Shown: one piece after another, positions 14,894 through 21,547 of the stretch
Layout: each line of letters starts with the position of its first letter
Position numbering within the stretch: position 1 is the stretch's first letter
From: a virus
DNA: 21,573 nucleotides
IMG/VR virus record: IMGVR_UViG_3300007960_000241
Location: 1-21,573 of that record
Strand: one strand, 5' to 3'
Program-made: the position numbers and the translations under genes
Notes under the pieces: generated by a model
Database searches by the model: none
What the model was told of the DNA's origin: nothing
The model's input: only the letters and a program-made list of their open reading frames with translations

Positions 14894-15910
14894 ATGACAA
14901 ATCTATTTAAGAAAGCGGCAGTTTTTACAGATATACATTTTGGACTAAAAAGTAATAGTATTCAACACAATCAAGATTGCTCTAATTTTGTTGACTGGTT
15001 CATTACCAAAGCCAAAGAAGAAAATTGTGATGTGTGTTTATTTTTGGGCGACTGGAATCATCACAGGTCGAGCATTAATATGCACACGTTGCAGTTTGGA
15101 TTACGTGCTTTAGAAAAACTAAGCAAAGCATTTGATCATGTATATTTCATTCCAGGCAATCACGATCTCTATTATAGAGATAAGCGTGATATTCACTCTG
15201 TTGAGTGGGCTAACCATTTACCAAATGTAACTATTGTTAATGATTGGTTCGAAGAGGGCAATGTAGTCATTGCCCCGTGGCTAGTGGGTGATGATTATAA
15301 ACAGATTCGAACTAAGAAGGGCAAATATTTGTTTGCTCACTTAGAACTTCCATACTTCTATATGAATGCAATGGTTGAGATGCCTGATCATGGTGAGATC
15401 AACAGCGATTACGTATCTCAATTCGACTGGGTGTTCTCAGGTCATTTCCATAAACGTCAATCAAAGAAAAATATCTGGTACATCGGTAACGCATTCCCTC
15501 ATAACTATGCAGACGCAGGTGATGATGCTAGGGGAATGATGATCTTAGAATGGGACAACGAGCCAGAGTTTCACGCTTGGCCCAATCAGCCCAAATATAG
15601 AGTGTATAAACTGAACGAGATTTTAGAAAACCCAGAAGGATTGCTGTTACCAGATTCTCATGTTAGAGTACATTTAGACATCGATATTTCTTATGAAGAA
15701 GCAAACTTTATCAGAGAAACTTTGATACCGCAACATAATTTACGAGAAATGGCATTGATCCCAATGAAATTGAGCGAGCATGCCACTGATCTTGCTCCCG
15801 GTGAACTGTCGTTTGAATCAGTTGACCAAATTATTATTGATCAGATCAGTAATATAGAGAGCCAGTTTTATGATCAAAAACTATTATTGGATATATATCG
15901 GAGTATATGA
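14894..15910 (+). CDS. 47: Recombination nuclease subunit gp47-like (SbcD/Mre11 family)
   Basis: 338 residues, equal to the usual gp47 length (~339). All metallophosphoesterase motifs are visible: FTDIHFG (Asp13, His15), FLGDWNHHR (Asp53, His56), PGNHD (Asn89-His90-Asp91), HLE (His149) and SGHFHKRQ (His184, His186). With gp46 it forms the Mn-dependent exonuclease that resects DNA ends for recombination-dependent replication and takes part in host DNA breakdown. The ribosome site is poor (GGG in a hairpin loop), suggesting controlled translation. The stop codon overlaps the ATG of the next gene (ATGA at 15907-15910). Confidence 0.93.
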   Translation: MTNLFKKAAVFTDIHFGLKSNSIQHNQDCSNFVDWFITKAKEENCDVCLFLGDWNHHRSSINMHTLQFGLRALEKLSKAFDHVYFIPGNHDLYYRDKRDIHSVEWANHLPNVTIVNDWFEEGNVVIAPWLVGDDYKQIRTKKGKYLFAHLELPYFYMNAMVEMPDHGEINSDYVSQFDWVFSGHFHKRQSKKNIWYIGNAFPHNYADAGDDARGMMILEWDNEPEFHAWPNQPKYRVYKLNEILENPEGLLLPDSHVRVHLDIDISYEEANFIRETLIPQHNLREMALIPMKLSEHATDLAPGELSFESVDQIIIDQISNIESQFYDQKLLLDIYRSI

Positions 15911-16572
15911 AAAAGATACACTATAGAAACGTGGGTTTACCAAAAACAGGTACTACTTGGCTTTGGCATCAACTCATGCGTAATCGTAATATAGACGGAA
16001 ATTTAAACGATTATTTAAAAGAATTTAAAGTAAAAACCATAGATGATTACAAACGATTGTATGAAAAGTTTGATGTTTCTGTAAATTTTAACACTCAAGT
16101 TTTTTATATTTCAAGTAATGATTTTGAAAGACCCGATAGAATCCATGAATATACTACACATATAACACTTAGTATAAGGAATCCGTATGAAATATTAGAT
16201 TCTATGTTCAACATGAGGAAGAATCGAAAAATACTAAACTTAGATACCAAATCTGCATACACCGAAGTTACAAGCATCATAGTAGAAAGACATTCCAATT
16301 TTGAAAATATTTTTGATTATTGGAAGTCTTGTAAATTAGACATCAAGTATATGCTATATGATGATCTAGTAGCAGATCCTAAAAAATACACTTATGATGT
16401 ATGTGAATATATAGGGGTTACCCCTTCGTATACGGAATTAGGTAAAATTTTGGCAACGGTCAAAGAAGATCCCTTAATATTTGACAATCAAAAAACAATA
16501 GATTATATTAACAAAAACATATGTGTGATAGAAGATCGCTTGAATCGTGACTTATCACATTGGAAAAGATAA
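15907..16572 (+). CDS. Sulfotransferase-like protein between gp47 and gp46
   Basis: 221 residues. The N-terminus GLPKTGTTWLW (10-20) is the PAPS 5'-phosphosulfate loop (P-K-[TS]-G-T-T-[WT]-L). SIRNPYEILDSMF carries the 3'-phosphate-binding pair Arg91 and Ser99 at the canonical spacing of eight. A C-terminal segment YDDLVADPKKYTYDVCEYIG resembles the Glu/Asp-x-Leu-x-x-Asp-P helix common to this superfamily. It is therefore likely to move sulfate from PAPS to a sugar or other acceptor, which cannot be told from sequence. It overlaps gp47 by 4 nt and gp46 by 1 nt (TAATG). Four sampled lines (16021-16260) average about 27% G+C, against 40-45% in samples of gp47 and gp46, so it looks like a recent acquisition fitted exactly into the operon. 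T4 also has small extra genes between 47 and 46. Confidence 0.75.
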   Translation: MKKIHYRNVGLPKTGTTWLWHQLMRNRNIDGNLNDYLKEFKVKTIDDYKRLYEKFDVSVNFNTQVFYISSNDFERPDRIHEYTTHITLSIRNPYEILDSMFNMRKNRKILNLDTKSAYTEVTSIIVERHSNFENIFDYWKSCKLDIKYMLYDDLVADPKKYTYDVCEYIGVTPSYTELGKILATVKEDPLIFDNQKTIDYINKNICVIEDRLNRDLSHWKR

Positions 16573-18341
16573 TGATAGCATTAAAAAATATTACACTGCG
16601 AAATTTTTTAAGCGTTGGATCAGTTACCCAAGCAATTAACTTAGATAATCAAGAACTTACTCTGATCTTAGGGGAAAATCTTGATCTAGGTGGTGATGGT
16701 GCAAGAAACGGTACGGGTAAGACTACTCTTATCCAAGCTATTAGCTATGCCTTATACGGTGTTCCGCTAAACAACATCAAACAAAACAATCTAATCAATA
16801 GAACAAACGGTAAAAACATGATGGTTACGCTAGATTTCGTAGCCAATGATGTTGAATATAGAATTGAACGTGGTAGAAAACCCAACGTATTAAAGTTTTT
16901 TGTTAATGGACAAACTGATGACTCGGATAATGATGCTCAAGGTGAGAACAAAGAGACACAGGATGTAATAGAAAAAATTATTAACATGTCCCCTAACATG
17001 TTTAGGAACATTATTGCTCTCAACACATACAATCAACCCTTCTTGAGTATGACTCAAGGCCAGCAACGAGACTTGATCGAACAGTTGTTGGGTATTACCT
17101 TGTTGTCTGAAAAAGCTGAAAAGATCAAGGGTCTTATCAAATCAAACAAAGAAGAACTACAGCAAGAAGAATTTAAGATCAAGGCTGTCGAAGAAGCAAA
17201 CAAAAGAATCCATGACCAAATTGATTCTTTACAAAAACGCTCTAGGTTGTGGGAAGCCAAGACAAATGAAGACATTACCAAACTAAAAGAACAACTTGAA
17301 CAATTAAAAACTTTGGATATCGAAGCCGAATTGCTTGGCCATAAAGAACTTACTGCGTACAATCAACGCAAGAAAGATCATGCAGATATCGATAAAAGTT
17401 TGACCAGAGCGCAATCAGATTTAGAAAAAGAAAATAAGACATACGAAAAAATTAATAAGGATATCAATACATTACGCACTAACAAGTGTTATGCTTGTGG
17501 TCAAGATTTTCATGACCACAGTCACGCTAAAGTATTGGAAGATAAAGAAAAAACATTAGAAGAAACTAGTGATAAGTTAGTTGAGCTAGCCGAATTCATT
17601 GTAGAGCTAGAAAAAGCAAAACAACTGCTTGGTCCTATAGGTACACAACCTAAATTGTTTTATGATTCTGAGCAAGAAGCATTTGAACATAGGAACAAGT
17701 TAGACAATCTATTGCAACAGATCGACTCTAAAGAACGAGATATCAATCCTTATATCGATCAGATCAGTGATATGCAAACTCAGGCTTTACAAGAAATCAA
17801 TTTTGACAAGATCAACGAACTTACCAAGATCGGTGAGCATCAAAAGTTCTTGTTAGACTTGCTTACTAGCAAAGACTCGTTTGTTCGTAAAAAGATTATT
17901 GATCAGAACTTGTCCTATTTGAACGCTAGACTAACTCATTATCTTGACAAGATGGGTCTACCTCATCAAGTTGTGTTCCAAAATGATCTTACTGTAGAAA
18001 TTACAGAACTGGGTAGGGAACTAGACTTTGATAACTTAAGCAGAGGTGAACGTAACAGATTGATCTTGGGTCTATCGTTTGCGTTCAGAGACGTGTGGGA
18101 GAACTTGTATCACCCAATCAATACATTGTTTATCGATGAATTGATCGATTCGGGTCTCGACACTATCGGTGTAGAAAATGCTATGGCTATTCTAAAAGAT
18201 ATGTCACGTAGACGTAGTAAGTCTATCTGGTTAGTATCTCACAGGGAAGAATTAGCAGGACGTGTACCAAGCGTATTGCAAGTTATCAAAGAAAACGGAT
18301 TCACTACGTATAATACTTCTAGAGACATGGGGAACTTATGA
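16572..18341 (+). CDS. 46: Recombination nuclease ATPase subunit gp46-like (SbcC/Rad50 family)
   Basis: 589 residues from ATG 16572; T4 gp46 is 560. An in-frame TTG at 16560 would add four residues, but the ATG forms the TAATG overlap with the preceding stop and gives the standard start (MIALKNITLRNFLSVG). Visible parts are: Walker A GARNGTGKTT (43-52); a Q-loop near ALNTYNQPFLSMT; two coiled-coil arms (about 180-300 and 318-420); a zinc hook CYACGQ (Cys306, Cys309) between them; the ABC signature LSRGERNRL (489-497); Walker B TLFIDEL (518-524); and a switch histidine in LVSHREE. It is the ATPase that opens and drives gp47. The stop overlaps the next start (ATGA, 18338-18341). Confidence 0.93.
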   Translation: MIALKNITLRNFLSVGSVTQAINLDNQELTLILGENLDLGGDGARNGTGKTTLIQAISYALYGVPLNNIKQNNLINRTNGKNMMVTLDFVANDVEYRIERGRKPNVLKFFVNGQTDDSDNDAQGENKETQDVIEKIINMSPNMFRNIIALNTYNQPFLSMTQGQQRDLIEQLLGITLLSEKAEKIKGLIKSNKEELQQEEFKIKAVEEANKRIHDQIDSLQKRSRLWEAKTNEDITKLKEQLEQLKTLDIEAELLGHKELTAYNQRKKDHADIDKSLTRAQSDLEKENKTYEKINKDINTLRTNKCYACGQDFHDHSHAKVLEDKEKTLEETSDKLVELAEFIVELEKAKQLLGPIGTQPKLFYDSEQEAFEHRNKLDNLLQQIDSKERDINPYIDQISDMQTQALQEINFDKINELTKIGEHQKFLLDLLTSKDSFVRKKIIDQNLSYLNARLTHYLDKMGLPHQVVFQNDLTVEITELGRELDFDNLSRGERNRLILGLSFAFRDVWENLYHPINTLFIDELIDSGLDTIGVENAMAILKDMSRRRSKSIWLVSHREELAGRVPSVLQVIKENGFTTYNTSRDMGNL

Positions 18342-19351
18342 GTCTTGCCCTGTGGCATTGGCATATTGAGATCAGTAGCAAGTGTACATTAAAGTGTCCC
18401 AGATGCCCTCGGCAAGAAGTACCCGACACTTTAGTGAATACAGAGCTAGACCTAATGTTCTTTAAAAAGAACTTTACGCCGGATTTTATCACACAAAGTG
18501 TCGAAAAAGTTACCTTCTGCGGTGACGACGGTGATCCTATCTATGCACATGATTTTATTCCTGTAATCAGATACTTTAAAGAAATCAAACCTAGTATTGC
18601 GTTTGTAATCGTCACTAATGGTTCATATAAATCTATGGGCTGGTGGCAAGAACTTGCAGAATTATTAGACGAACACGATCAGATTCATTTCAGTATTGAT
18701 GGTTGGGACCAACCAAGCAACAATATCTATAGAATCAATTCTAACTGGTCTAGCATCATTACAGGTGCTACAGTAATGACTCAACAGTCTAAGTGTTACA
18801 CTGTATGGGACGTTATTGGATTTAAGTTTAACGAGCATAAGATTGAAGACATGAGAGCCTATGCTACAGAGTTAGGCTTTGATGCTTTTCAATTAACGAA
18901 AAGCACGAAGTTTGGTAAGATTTATAATCACTATGGTGAAGACGATGATTTACAACCAAGTGATGAACTGCTATCATCTAGTCACAGATTTGAACGTGAA
19001 GTGTTCAAGCTGTCAGATAGAAATGTAAAACAACCTTGGATGAAAACAAATCTAAAGTTGTATAAAGAAGCACCGATCATTGGTAACGAACGCCCTCTAT
19101 GTCATATAGGTAACAAGGGCAGTTATATCAATGCTAAGGGAGAGTTTTATCCTTGTTGCTGGGTAGCAACACGTTATGGTCACAATAGCAAATGGAACGA
19201 AATAGGTAAGAAATATAACTTACATAACGTCAATTTACCCGAAGTTGTCAAAGACGAGTTCTGGAATGCCGAGTTTATTCATGGCTCTTACGAGTGTCAG
19301 ACAAAATGTGCCCATCATAGGATAGATAAAAATTACGCCACTGAGTGGTAA
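18338..19351 (+). CDS. Radical SAM protein with SPASM/twitch-like C-terminus
   Basis: 337 residues. The iron-sulfur motif is CTLKCPRC (Cys16, Cys20, Cys23; C-x3-C-x2-C). Next come FCGDDGDPIY (60-69), standing in for the usual GGEP SAM-binding strand, and VIVTNGS (90-96) and HFSIDGW (117-123), typical barrel strands. The C-terminal half has five more cysteines (255, 273, 274, 320, 324; PLCHIG, YPCCW, YECQTKC), arranged like the auxiliary-cluster part of SPASM or twitch proteins, which often modify peptides. The substrate is unknown. It starts within the gp46 stop (ATGA), so it is translated with the recombination nuclease. Whether it modifies a phage or host protein, or nucleic acid, is open. 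Confidence 0.85.
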   Translation: MSLALWHWHIEISSKCTLKCPRCPRQEVPDTLVNTELDLMFFKKNFTPDFITQSVEKVTFCGDDGDPIYAHDFIPVIRYFKEIKPSIAFVIVTNGSYKSMGWWQELAELLDEHDQIHFSIDGWDQPSNNIYRINSNWSSIITGATVMTQQSKCYTVWDVIGFKFNEHKIEDMRAYATELGFDAFQLTKSTKFGKIYNHYGEDDDLQPSDELLSSSHRFEREVFKLSDRNVKQPWMKTNLKLYKEAPIIGNERPLCHIGNKGSYINAKGEFYPCCWVATRYGHNSKWNEIGKKYNLHNVNLPEVVKDEFWNAEFIHGSYECQTKCAHHRIDKNYATEW

Positions 19352-19376: not shown

Positions 19377-19961
19377 ATGCCATCACCATCTAAGATAAAA
19401 GGATCAAGTTTTGAACGAGATATCGCAAAATATCTCTCAGACCTCTATGGAGAGTCGTTTATCAGAGCGCCTGGTTCTGGGGCTTACGTTGGGGGTAAAA
19501 ATCAGTCACGCAAAGAAGTCTTGCATGAAGGACAGATCAGAAGTTTCAAGGGAGATATTGTTCCCGGAGAAAGTTTTAGTAATCTGAACGTAGAATGTAA
19601 AAGTTATGCAGACTTCCCCTTTCATTTAGTATTGACAGGTTCTTGCAAGCAGTTAGATGAGTGGTTAGATCAGCTAATGACTGTTGCCGAACCAAATGAT
19701 CTAAGCGTTTTGTTTATGAAATTTAATCGGAAAGGTAAATTTGTTTGTGTACCCAGCAAGTATACTTGGGTCACTGATCAATTTATGTATTACACTTCTG
19801 ATAAACACGCAGATTGGGTCATTATCGAATTCAATCACTTTTTTCAATTTAACAAAGATACTTTTAAAGCATACTCAGGCTCAACAGACAACAAGTCAAG
19901 CACACAGTCGAACCCACTAGACACCAAGTCTATCTCAACGACACCAGTCAATCTTAACTAA
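19377..19961 (+). CDS. PD-(D/E)XK-type nuclease, Holliday-junction-resolvase-like
   Basis: 194 residues. The N-terminal pattern KGSSFERDIAKYLSDLYG (Glu13) followed by RAPGSGAY (30-37), FKGDIV (Asp60) and LNVECKSY (Glu73, Lys75) is the E...GD...ExK metal site of the PD-(D/E)XK fold, in the arrangement used by Hjc-like resolvases and small phage nucleases. The last ~30 residues are Ser/Thr/Asn-rich and probably disordered. It begins 25 nt after the radical SAM gene, with GAGAAG just before the ATG, and ends the plus-strand operon that also encodes gp46/gp47. A role in cutting branched recombination intermediates is plausible. The exact substrate is not shown by the sequence. Confidence 0.75.
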   Translation: MPSPSKIKGSSFERDIAKYLSDLYGESFIRAPGSGAYVGGKNQSRKEVLHEGQIRSFKGDIVPGESFSNLNVECKSYADFPFHLVLTGSCKQLDEWLDQLMTVAEPNDLSVLFMKFNRKGKFVCVPSKYTWVTDQFMYYTSDKHADWVIIEFNHFFQFNKDTFKAYSGSTDNKSSTQSNPLDTKSISTTPVNLN

Positions 19962-19980
19962 CAATTTGTACATTTAGCAT

Positions 19981-20306
19981 GGTCGTGATTTTTGCGCTCG
20001 ACCCTCCTTGAGGACCCCTATATGGGCGACGGATCTGGAGTAGTGTGTTACACACAATAAACCGAGAGGGCAATCGTTATGGTAGCGAACCCTCAATGAG
20101 TCTATATCTATTTTGTCTTGATGATATAGAACATGCGTTGCCGAGAGGTCACATTTATTAATGTGATTGGCTCAACTACAACCCAGTAAACTTTACAGGG
20201 CAACCGGTAGCGATTGATTCATAGTAACGTGATCAGTCGGGGATAGACAACATGGACGATGGGCGGTAATGCTCCTTTGTCTTGGTAGTGCTTGAGTAGC
20301 ACTACC
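19981..20306 (+). ncRNA. Candidate structured non-coding RNA
   Basis: About 326 nt without a credible reading frame, almost fully covered by stems: GGTCG/CGACC (19981-20003); GTGTG/CACAC (20043-20055); GAGGG/CCCTC enclosing CGTTA/TAGCG (20066-20094); TCTATATC/GATATAGA (20101-20130); GTTGCC/GGCAAC (20137-20204) closing a three-way junction with TCACATT/AATGTGA and GTAA/TTAC arms; CGATTGATT/GATCAGTCG (20211-20239); AGACAACAT/ATG..TTGTCT (20245-20282); GGTAGTGCT/AGCACTACC (20284-20306). Three G-U pairs, which would be A-C mismatches on the other strand, favour the plus strand. Short words recur (CCGAGAGG at 20062 and 20141; GGTAGCGA at 20081 and 20206). I find no tRNA, tmRNA, RNase P or group I intron signatures. 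It may be transcribed on from the nuclease gene. Confidence 0.6.
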
Positions 20307-20369
20307 ATGGCTTCAAAACGGTAATAATATTCCGAATAGAACAATTAAGAGATTTTAGATTATCCTAAT

Positions 20370-20408
20370 AAAAAAAGAATTGCGAATGAGCGAAGCGAAT
20401 GAGCAATT
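20370..20408 (-). terminator. Possible terminator of the leftward gp26 transcript
   Basis: On the minus strand AATTGC...GCAATT (20378-20408) is followed by C and seven T (20370-20376), the layout of an intrinsic terminator 85 nt beyond the extension stop. The 6-bp outer stem is weak, and on this strand the inner part pairs poorly, so the call is tentative. The hairpin at 20409-20427 lies just before it and may help. Confidence 0.4.
20378..20408 (+). repeat. Hairpin with symmetric tandem G-A mismatches
   Basis: The plus strand reads AATTGC, GAATGA, GCGAAGC, GAATGA, GCAATT. The two GAATGA copies face each other as G-A, A-G, A-T, T-A, G-A, A-G, so with sheared G-A pairs the whole 31 nt can be one continuous helix capped by the very stable GCGAAGC mini-hairpin. 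It is also a direct repeat of GCGAATGAGC (20382-20391 and 20395-20404). Confidence 0.6.
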
Positions 20409-20492
20409 AGGTCTCTGTAAGAGACCTCTTGATTAACAATAGAAAAGATAATTAATTGCTGATGAAAATTTATGATACCATGGGTAATGACA

Positions 20493-20723
20493 TTAAAAGA
20501 ATGGCATCTGTGTTTTCTTGGTAGTTTCTAAATGATCTTCCACTATCTTATTTATGGCTTCACGTTCTGATTCAGACATGTTGAGAACATCTTCATAGGT
20601 GACACCGCCACGCATATACCAGGACAGACTCAAAGCATTAGCTTTGACTGCCCTGACGTAATCATCATACGATTTGATTAACTTCCTTATCCCGTCAGGG
20701 TCGAGAGAAAGAAGCCTTAGCCG
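20493..20723 (-). CDS. -1 frame extension of the gp26-like gene
   Basis: Seventy-six codons plus stop in the -1 frame relative to the gp26-like gene, beginning at the slippery site. There is no ATG, GTG or TTG ahead of the coding-like part: the first TTG and ATG fall within ALSLSWYM. The product includes DPDGIRKLIKSYDDYVRAVK, then SLSWYMRGGVTYEDVLNMSE, REAINKIVEDHLETTKK and ends MPFF. The helical, charged composition and this pattern (SWYMRGG-x-T/S-Y-E, ...TKK...PFF) resemble a small conserved protein I recall from marine T4-like phages near gp26. Expression by frameshifting would give a 351-residue fusion. It may act as the tape-measure-binding part, as the T domain does in lambda GT; this is inference. 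Confidence 0.7.
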   Translation of the reverse strand, partial: RLRLLSLDPDGIRKLIKSYDDYVRAVKANALSLSWYMRGGVTYEDVLNMSESEREAINKIVEDHLETTKKTQMPFF

Positions 20724-20729
20724 AAAAAA
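20682..20729 (-). promoter_or_regulatory. Programmed -1 ribosomal frameshift signal
   Basis: In the gp26 frame the heptamer T TTT TTC (20729-20723) has the exact X XXY YYZ phase. After 8 nt, which hold the in-frame TAA stop, comes a stem CTTCTTT (20714-20708) paired with AAGGAAG (20688-20682), enclosing a small CCC-TGAC-GGG hairpin (20700-20691). Slippery site, spacer and stem-loop are in the arrangement known from phage tail-assembly and other -1 frameshift genes. Confidence 0.7.
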
Positions 20730-21547
20730 TCGCTAACGTTCAGTGAGAATGATTGCTTGTACTCATGTTGACATTCAACACATGCGATATCTAGAGGTTT
20801 AATAGTGCTTTCTGCTCTTAATGCACTATGATAATCTCTGATAGTTTCATATGTTTTTGTATCAGCATTAGTTAAAAAGTCTTCAACAAATTCTACTTCA
20901 GTTACTTTTGCATTTGGAGTTTCTATGTACTCGACTGCTTGAGCCAAGATTTTCATAGTAAGCAATGTGATATCTTTCAATGCTTCTTGACTTAATCTAT
21001 TTCTTTCATCCACGTCTTTAACATCAGCTAAGTTTCTGTATTTGGCTTGAATCTCAAATTGACCTAGACCAGCTTGATTCATTTCTTTATAATGTAATGG
21101 TTTAAACTTGATCTTTAATTCACCGTATTCTAAAATTTTATGATAGTCACCCGGTCTTAAAGAAGATAACAGAGTTTGCATGTTAATACCATAAGTACCT
21201 AATGCCTTACAACTTGGGCATTCTGACTCAACATCAAGTGATTCTTGTCCGCCTGCCGCCCGGATCGCAATTAAAATCGAATCTAAGTCATTGCTCAATA
21301 CTTTCCATGGGTCTTTGATATTCGGCACACAACTTTTGATGATCTGCACGATTGCGTCACCGTTAAACAATGCGTCAGGAGTTTTGGTGGTAATGTCATC
21401 GATAGCAGTCATGGGGTAGACTGGAAGTTCTCCATTCTCTGTTTTTTCGATAACGTCATCAGGATAGTTTTCAATACCTGATGGCAGAGTGATATAAACT
21501 CCTGGTCTTCTAAAGTACTGTCTTAACGGATTGTCAATTGCGGCCAT
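20717..21547 (-). CDS. 26: Baseplate hub/tail assembly protein gp26-like
   Basis: 276 residues (T4 gp26 about 208). The N-terminal pattern NPLRQYFRRPGVYITLPSG, then NGELPVYPMTAIDDITTKTP, DALFNGDAIVQIIKSCVPNI and DSILIAIRAA is that of the T4 gp26 baseplate family. Two CxxC pairs (CPSC at 110-113, CVEC at 256-259) could bind a zinc ion as a split ribbon. T4 gp26 is needed for hub assembly and is not a major part of the finished tail, which fits a chaperone. GAGGAAAC stands before the ATG at 21547. It is a separate leftward unit, convergent with the recombination operon. The gene ends in a frameshift signal, so about 275 residues are shared by the short form and a predicted 351-residue long form. 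Confidence 0.82.
   Translation of the reverse strand: MAAIDNPLRQYFRRPGVYITLPSGIENYPDDVIEKTENGELPVYPMTAIDDITTKTPDALFNGDAIVQIIKSCVPNIKDPWKVLSNDLDSILIAIRAAGGQESLDVESECPSCKALGTYGINMQTLLSSLRPGDYHKILEYGELKIKFKPLHYKEMNQAGLGQFEIQAKYRNLADVKDVDERNRLSQEALKDITLLTMKILAQAVEYIETPNAKVTEVEFVEDFLTNADTKTYETIRDYHSALRAESTIKPLDIACVECQHEYKQSFSLNVSDFFG

Follow-up and report, generated by a model that had tools for sequence, protein, structure and literature searches.

A previously uncatalogued, elaborately folded RNA from T4-like jumbo phages

The locus and its relatives

The window, which here means the whole analysed stretch of 21,573 nucleotides, is a 21.6-kb IMG/VR virus fragment of a T4-like phage. Its T4-like gene content includes a late sigma factor, SbcC/SbcD, a radical SAM protein, a PDDEXK_15/RusA-like resolvase and a T4-type baseplate hub. 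Because close relatives are found on contigs of up to 524 kb, the phage can be assigned to a jumbo-phage clade; cultivated relatives of the hub are found in Atu_ph07, Phosso, PA5oct and the RaK2/121Q/GAP32 phages. A sulfotransferase-like gene (15907-16572) and a radical-SAM-like gene (18338-19351) adjoin SbcCD in a recombination gene cluster.

The resolvase gene (19377-19961, plus strand) is followed by the convergent hub gene of the gp26 family (20717-21547, minus strand). There is no open reading frame of 80 amino acids or more in 19962-20716, and 20493-20716 is the reading frame of gp26-C, which leaves about 530 nt of non-coding sequence. A preliminary description had placed a non-coding gap at 19981-20306, between convergent phage genes. 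Both the gap and its position were borne out, the position being conserved across the family, and the conserved element proved larger (19918-20430), with a core of about 330 nt or about 450-500 nt when the 3' hairpins are counted. Among homologues the lengths of the element fall into all three classes modulo 3 and the reading frames are broken by stops, so no coding constraint is seen. A possible peptide with its start at ATGGCTTC, downstream of P11, was rejected, since stops and frame changes, judged by eye, break it in relatives.

The end of the hub gene (window 20493-20729, minus strand) has a slippery heptamer, U UUU UUC, at 20723-20729 just ahead of the stop, and the -1 frame beyond it encodes a gp26-C extension (..SLSWYMRGGVTYEDVLNMSESEREAINKIVEDHLETTKKTQMPFF). 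The heptamer TTTTTTC is present in 267 of the 271 hub matches. A programmed -1 frameshift that recalls lambda gpG/gpGT is likely from this sequence pattern.

A profile search of syntenic loci recovered the RNA element in 87 of 110 first-round loci, and after two added pattern scans it was present in at least 275 of at least 299 sequences. The copies come from IMG/VR contigs of jumbo T4-like phages; at least 244 are near full length, with at least 157 distinct cores and at least 118 copies below 93% identity. The mean pairwise identity of the collected copies is 65%, and the alignment is therefore diverse enough for a covariation test. Eleven RNA-bearing contigs of 115-525 kb were searched whole and contained one copy apiece, and genomes of the main clade have a single locus. 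Three pattern matches in bacterial MAGs were discarded as chance, since the profile found no RNA nearby. DNA comparison with cultivated phages gave only chance matches of 23-25 nt, and none with the divergent copies as queries. Covariance model R1 did not find the RNA in the whole genomes of 15 cultivated jumbo phages; two matches with E~0.08 in such phages were rejected, one having many broken pairs and the other being partial. No published description of the RNA was found in the open-access literature, a search outside which lie subscription papers, preprints and the supplementary tables of large RNA surveys that may hold an unnamed entry. The RNA is a previously uncatalogued, elaborately folded molecule with more than 150 distinct copies from jumbo phages, and one large clade of T4-like jumbo phages apparently has it in its core genome.

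The order of resolvase, RNA and convergent hub is kept in 218 of the 272 scored loci among the matches listed. In nearly all the remaining scored loci, either the contig breaks off or the spacer is slightly longer. Locus L207 is without a detectable PDDEXK relative. The phage G017 (102.8 kb) has two paralogues, scored at 74 and 79 bits by the model. One of them (L330) is located between the convergent hub and SbcCD with no recognised resolvase adjoining, and the other (L278/L329) lies amid unrelated genes. As these divergent paralogues include one with unrelated neighbours, the RNA behaves like an independent gene and not as part of one operon.

Structure of the RNA

The plus strand folds at -106.8 kcal/mol (z -3.12), and none of 100 shuffled sequences folds as low. 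The minus strand gives z -3.27, so the energy shows structure and not strand. The strand is instead given by the homologues, where G-U combinations outnumber A-C by 72:7 (77:9 over P5-PK2), an excess that identifies the plus strand as the RNA, in agreement with the G-U preference noted in the preliminary description.

Covariation was analysed with an R-scape-like test written for the purpose (not R-scape itself), using an average-product-corrected G statistic. The null comprised 40 alignments in which the tree and the substitutions per branch were kept and positions were scattered, whereby rate differences between sites are flattened. The test gave 35 pairs at E<0.05, 30 of which are at least 80% canonical, with both pseudoknots among them. 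Independent counts gave the same picture. A core alignment of 70 sequences has 96.1% of cells paired and double changes in 23 of 32 pairs, and 0 of 500 shuffles were as good. In an alignment of 45 sequences (19979-20310) 47 of 70 pairs have double changes, again with 0 of 500 shuffles as good, and with alifold 49 of 68. Nearly every stem is thus supported by covariation in homologues, as a large structured phage RNA of the GOLLD/IMES kind, proposed earlier, would have it.

In the RNA, P5 closes a multi-branch domain that contains P6, P7 and P8/P9; P10 and P11 come next, and there are two pseudoknots. The stems listed in the preliminary description were largely right; the pseudoknots were missing from it. 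The pseudoknots are out of reach of folding programs and emerge from covariation. The short word repeats pointed out in the preliminary description are present and probably incidental, since they occur in differing structural contexts and one CCGAGAGG copy, on the P8/P9 side, is not conserved.

At the 5' side all elements are on the plus strand, as are those that follow. The P1 hairpin (19981-20003; 19981-85:19999-20003) has 96% of cells paired and double changes in 5 of 5 pairs. P2 (20004-20040; 20004-07:20037-40), with the sequence CUCC:GGAG, encloses the variable P3 and is invariant in 45 of 45 aligned copies; it is thereby conserved, yet outside the reach of the covariation test. Mimicry of an anti-Shine-Dalgarno sequence by CUCCUU in P2 was considered and dropped, six invariant bases being too few for an argument. 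P4 (20043-20055) is a variable hairpin with covarying pairs.

P5 (20061-20208; 20061-64:20205-08) closes the multi-branch core, is 100% paired with double changes in 2 of 4 pairs, and forms the core of model R1. P6 (20066-20094; 20066-70:20090-94) contains the inner P6b (20074-76:20086-88); the two are 99-100% paired, and P6 has double changes in 4 of 5 pairs. P7 (20096-20134) comprises 20096-98:20132-34 and 20101-08:20123-30, which are 98-99% paired with double changes in 10 of 11 pairs. P8 (20137-20204; 20137-42:20199-204) is 96% paired with double changes in 4 of 6 pairs. The P9 hairpin (20143-20173) varies in length and sequence, is loosely aligned, and is 71% paired when the basal 3 bp are counted.

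The loop of P7 forms PK1, in which 20113-20118 pairs with 20245-20250. The positions are 98-100% paired, double changes are found in 5 of 6 pairs and the covariation is significant; over 118 copies pairing is 98.3%, compared with 34-52% when the strands are slid. Copy L330, which is divergent, has an unrelated pairing of 8 bp, CUAUGAGU:ACUCAUAG, where the others have PK1. PK2 joins 20182-20184 with 20240-20242 and is 99% paired (99.1% by the count with slid controls). Runs of C and G nearby let the slid controls here reach up to 91.5%, and it is therefore the outer pair that provides the evidence for PK2: it is significant and is seen as all four Watson-Crick types (UA, CG, AU and GC). Judged by these sequence comparisons, the multi-branch core of P5-P8, which PK1 and PK2 lock, is a compact pseudoknotted domain.

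Downstream of the core, the P10 hairpin (20211-20239) has 7 significant covarying pairs, and its alifold pairs have double changes. P11 (20284-20306) is a 9-bp hairpin of near-invariant sequence, 99.7% paired with few compensatory changes, and its 12-nt run GCACTACCATGG is at least 95% identical across 118 copies. The words ACCGA, UGCGUU, ACUACA and AACCGGU in the core are invariant. P12 (20378-20408) is an A-rich linker with a hairpin AAUUGC..GCAAUU and a significant covarying pair, 20390:20396. The terminal hairpin (20410-20426) is 97.7% paired with four significant covarying pairs. It is possibly a terminator, perhaps a bidirectional one; its short U-tract accounts for its absence from the calls of the terminator scan.

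The 3' end of the PDDEXK gene contains a mini-hairpin, tagac-ACCAA-gtcta (19918-19932, plus strand; consensus gac-ACCAM-gucA). It lies 49-106 nt 5' of P2 and was found in 112 of the 114 copies, with a mild bias in that the choice of sites favoured hairpins. Changes in its stem are compensatory (GAC:GTC, GGC:GCC, GAG:CTC), and it is the sole strongly conserved feature in an otherwise variable, G-poor gene end. Of the 11 large contigs, 8 contain the exact 12-mer, once each and in every case a short way 5' of the RNA. The mini-hairpin could be a protein-binding or processing site. No covariation was found for a pairing of its ACCAA loop with UUGGU of P11.

A second RNA beside the hub in cultivated jumbo phages

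In the phages 121Q, PBECO4, GAP32, CBB, BF, Munch and relatives, the hub is adjoined by a gap of about 700-800 nt, which in most of them has EndoVII on its other side. The gap is either unannotated or has small hypothetical genes annotated over an RNA of about 700 nt (L312 1390-2100; L303 5050-5840, minus strand; also L313-L320 and L325). In XaC1 this RNA is located away from the hub. It is conserved at 69-77% between genera, and in BF it folds with z -4.0 on the corresponding strand. Among ten sequences, double changes are found in 71 of 159 alifold pairs, a count that leans towards structure since the structure was predicted from the same alignment, and the GU:AC ratio is 159:28. The RNA is preceded by a promoter-like box, TGGAACR-N16/17-TATAAT; a similar TGAAACG/TATA promoter has been reported for CBB (PMC5259590).

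The 700-nt RNA shares with the window RNA the site convergent with a T4-like hub, the relative strand and a large covarying structure. A GUUGC:GCAAC helix whose 3' side carries ACAGRGCAAC is also common to both. It differs in being larger and in having a promoter-like box of its own. Profile search detected no homology between the two, model R1 did not match, and the 700-nt RNA belongs to no Rfam family. A ACAGAGCAACCG-like word recalls CR-II of RNase P RNA. Homology with RNase P, prompted by the ACAGAGCAAC word, was rejected, as RNase P models matched neither the window (E<=5) nor the two 121Q-type RNAs scanned (E<=10).

Three further long gaps were observed. PA5oct has a hub-adjoining gap of about 660 nt (L302 5541-6204, minus strand) that folds far better than shuffles (z -9.35) and on this folding prediction is a candidate for a further RNA or a terminator cluster. 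The long gaps of Phosso (L301 6227-7000, minus strand) and L012 (4830-5590, minus strand), likewise near the hub, fold on the corresponding strand with z -6.0 and z -4.45, respectively.

Tentatively, jumbo T4-like phages as a group may have a dedicated large-RNA locus convergent with the hub, occupied by at least two ornate RNAs that are unrelated in sequence or very anciently related, to which the gaps of PA5oct and Phosso would be added. These would form a new core viral RNA class with one shared task in infection.

Role of the RNA and comparison with known systems

On balance, the element is probably a plus-strand structured ncRNA gene, core in its clade, that most likely acts in trans during infection as a rigid scaffold or as a ribonucleoprotein. 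Transcription would probably run on from the resolvase gene, with processing freeing the RNA from the 3' end of that transcript, or else start at a promoter within the gene. A putative partner, either a protein or a host machine, would recognise P11 together with the invariant unpaired nucleotides of the core, the near-invariant and presumably rigid P11 arm and the invariant core words being the obvious candidate for a binding surface. The two paralogues in G017, one amid unrelated genes, argue for action in trans. The structured RNA that cultivated relatives have at the corresponding place, away from the hub in XaC1, also counts in favour of this reading, and the large RNAs of ICP1 and GOLLD are precedents. 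Counted against it are the lack of a sigma-70-like promoter directly upstream of the RNA and the result of a search for a partner: a Ro60-like TROVE protein, a natural candidate and the partner expected of a Y RNA, is absent from the 11 RNA-bearing contigs, some of which are fragments. Atu_ph07 encodes a TROVE/Ro60-like protein (MF403008.1 94308-95237, E 3e-34).

The near-absolute synteny with the resolvase could also mean a role in cis. The element would then be a 3'UTR element of the resolvase operon that stabilises the 3' end of the mRNA, insulates the convergent operons and ends in the terminal hairpin. The RNA does directly follow the PDDEXK gene and face the hub in the 218 loci given above, the mini-hairpin is within the PDDEXK reading frame and the terminal hairpin covaries. 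A role of this kind nevertheless seems unlikely, since two pseudoknots and an invariant core are needless for a 3'UTR stabiliser, the paralogue L278/L329 is amid unrelated genes, and L207 and L330 are without a PDDEXK neighbour.

By analogy, a large, pseudoknotted, phage-encoded RNA with no known protein partner could assemble into a homo-oligomeric particle made of RNA alone, as GOLLD, ROOL and OLE do in forming cages or dimers (PMC12286853). This is quite improbable for the window RNA, which is smaller, has no Rfam match to these three families and has no tRNA neighbours. The hairpin loops of P3, P4, P9, P10 and P11 are also variable, so that conserved kissing loops between subunits are not evident.

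A catalytic, self-processing RNA would account for the compact double-pseudoknot core with its invariant unpaired nucleotides and is very unlikely, as the RNA resembles no Rfam ribozyme and a conserved cleavage-site context was not recognised. For the neighbouring PDDEXK nuclease, whose gene is on the same strand and directly upstream of the RNA in almost all copies, the RNA might serve as cofactor or guide, much as other large RNAs near nuclease genes have proved to be nuclease RNAs (HEARO). This too is very unlikely: L278/L329, L330 and L207 carry the RNA with no PDDEXK gene adjoining, no guide-like hypervariable segment is evident, and the cultivated counterpart has next to it an EndoVII gene, which is unrelated and lies on the opposite strand.

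Very few ornate phage RNAs are known, and what they do has long been a question; the RNA, widespread and present once per genome, adds to them a well-supported large class with two covarying pseudoknots. With a counterpart RNA in cultivable jumbo phages of E. coli and Salmonella, the question of what use phages make of large structured RNAs becomes directly testable.

Having extensive covariation-supported structure in phage genomes, the window RNA is, on comparative sequence evidence, a large structured phage ncRNA in the broad sense. It resembles GOLLD and ROOL in kind and is a member of neither family. Neither at gathering score nor at E<=5 did the window match any Rfam covariance model, those of GOLLD, ROOL, OLE and IMES included. 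The preliminary description had also seen no signature of tRNA, tmRNA or RNase P, and Rfam and ARAGORN agreed; there is no tRNA or tmRNA in the 21.6-kb window. GOLLD and ROOL are often located near tRNA genes, a proximity that the window RNA thus does not share. ROOL is likewise phage-encoded with a complex multi-pseudoknot fold; the window RNA is smaller and not matched by the ROOL model. GOLLD is likewise a large ornate RNA of phages and prophages, known from lake and marine metagenomes, but its architecture is different, its model does not match and the window RNA is about half its size. GOLLD rises during phage lysis and is ribosome-bound in pull-downs (PMC12286853). The ncRNA of about 800 nt in the lytic phage ICP1 offers an analogy in that it too occupies orf-less space in a large phage; it belongs to a different phage group, and its transcription is known from RNA-seq, where it is the most abundant transcript (PMC7567579).
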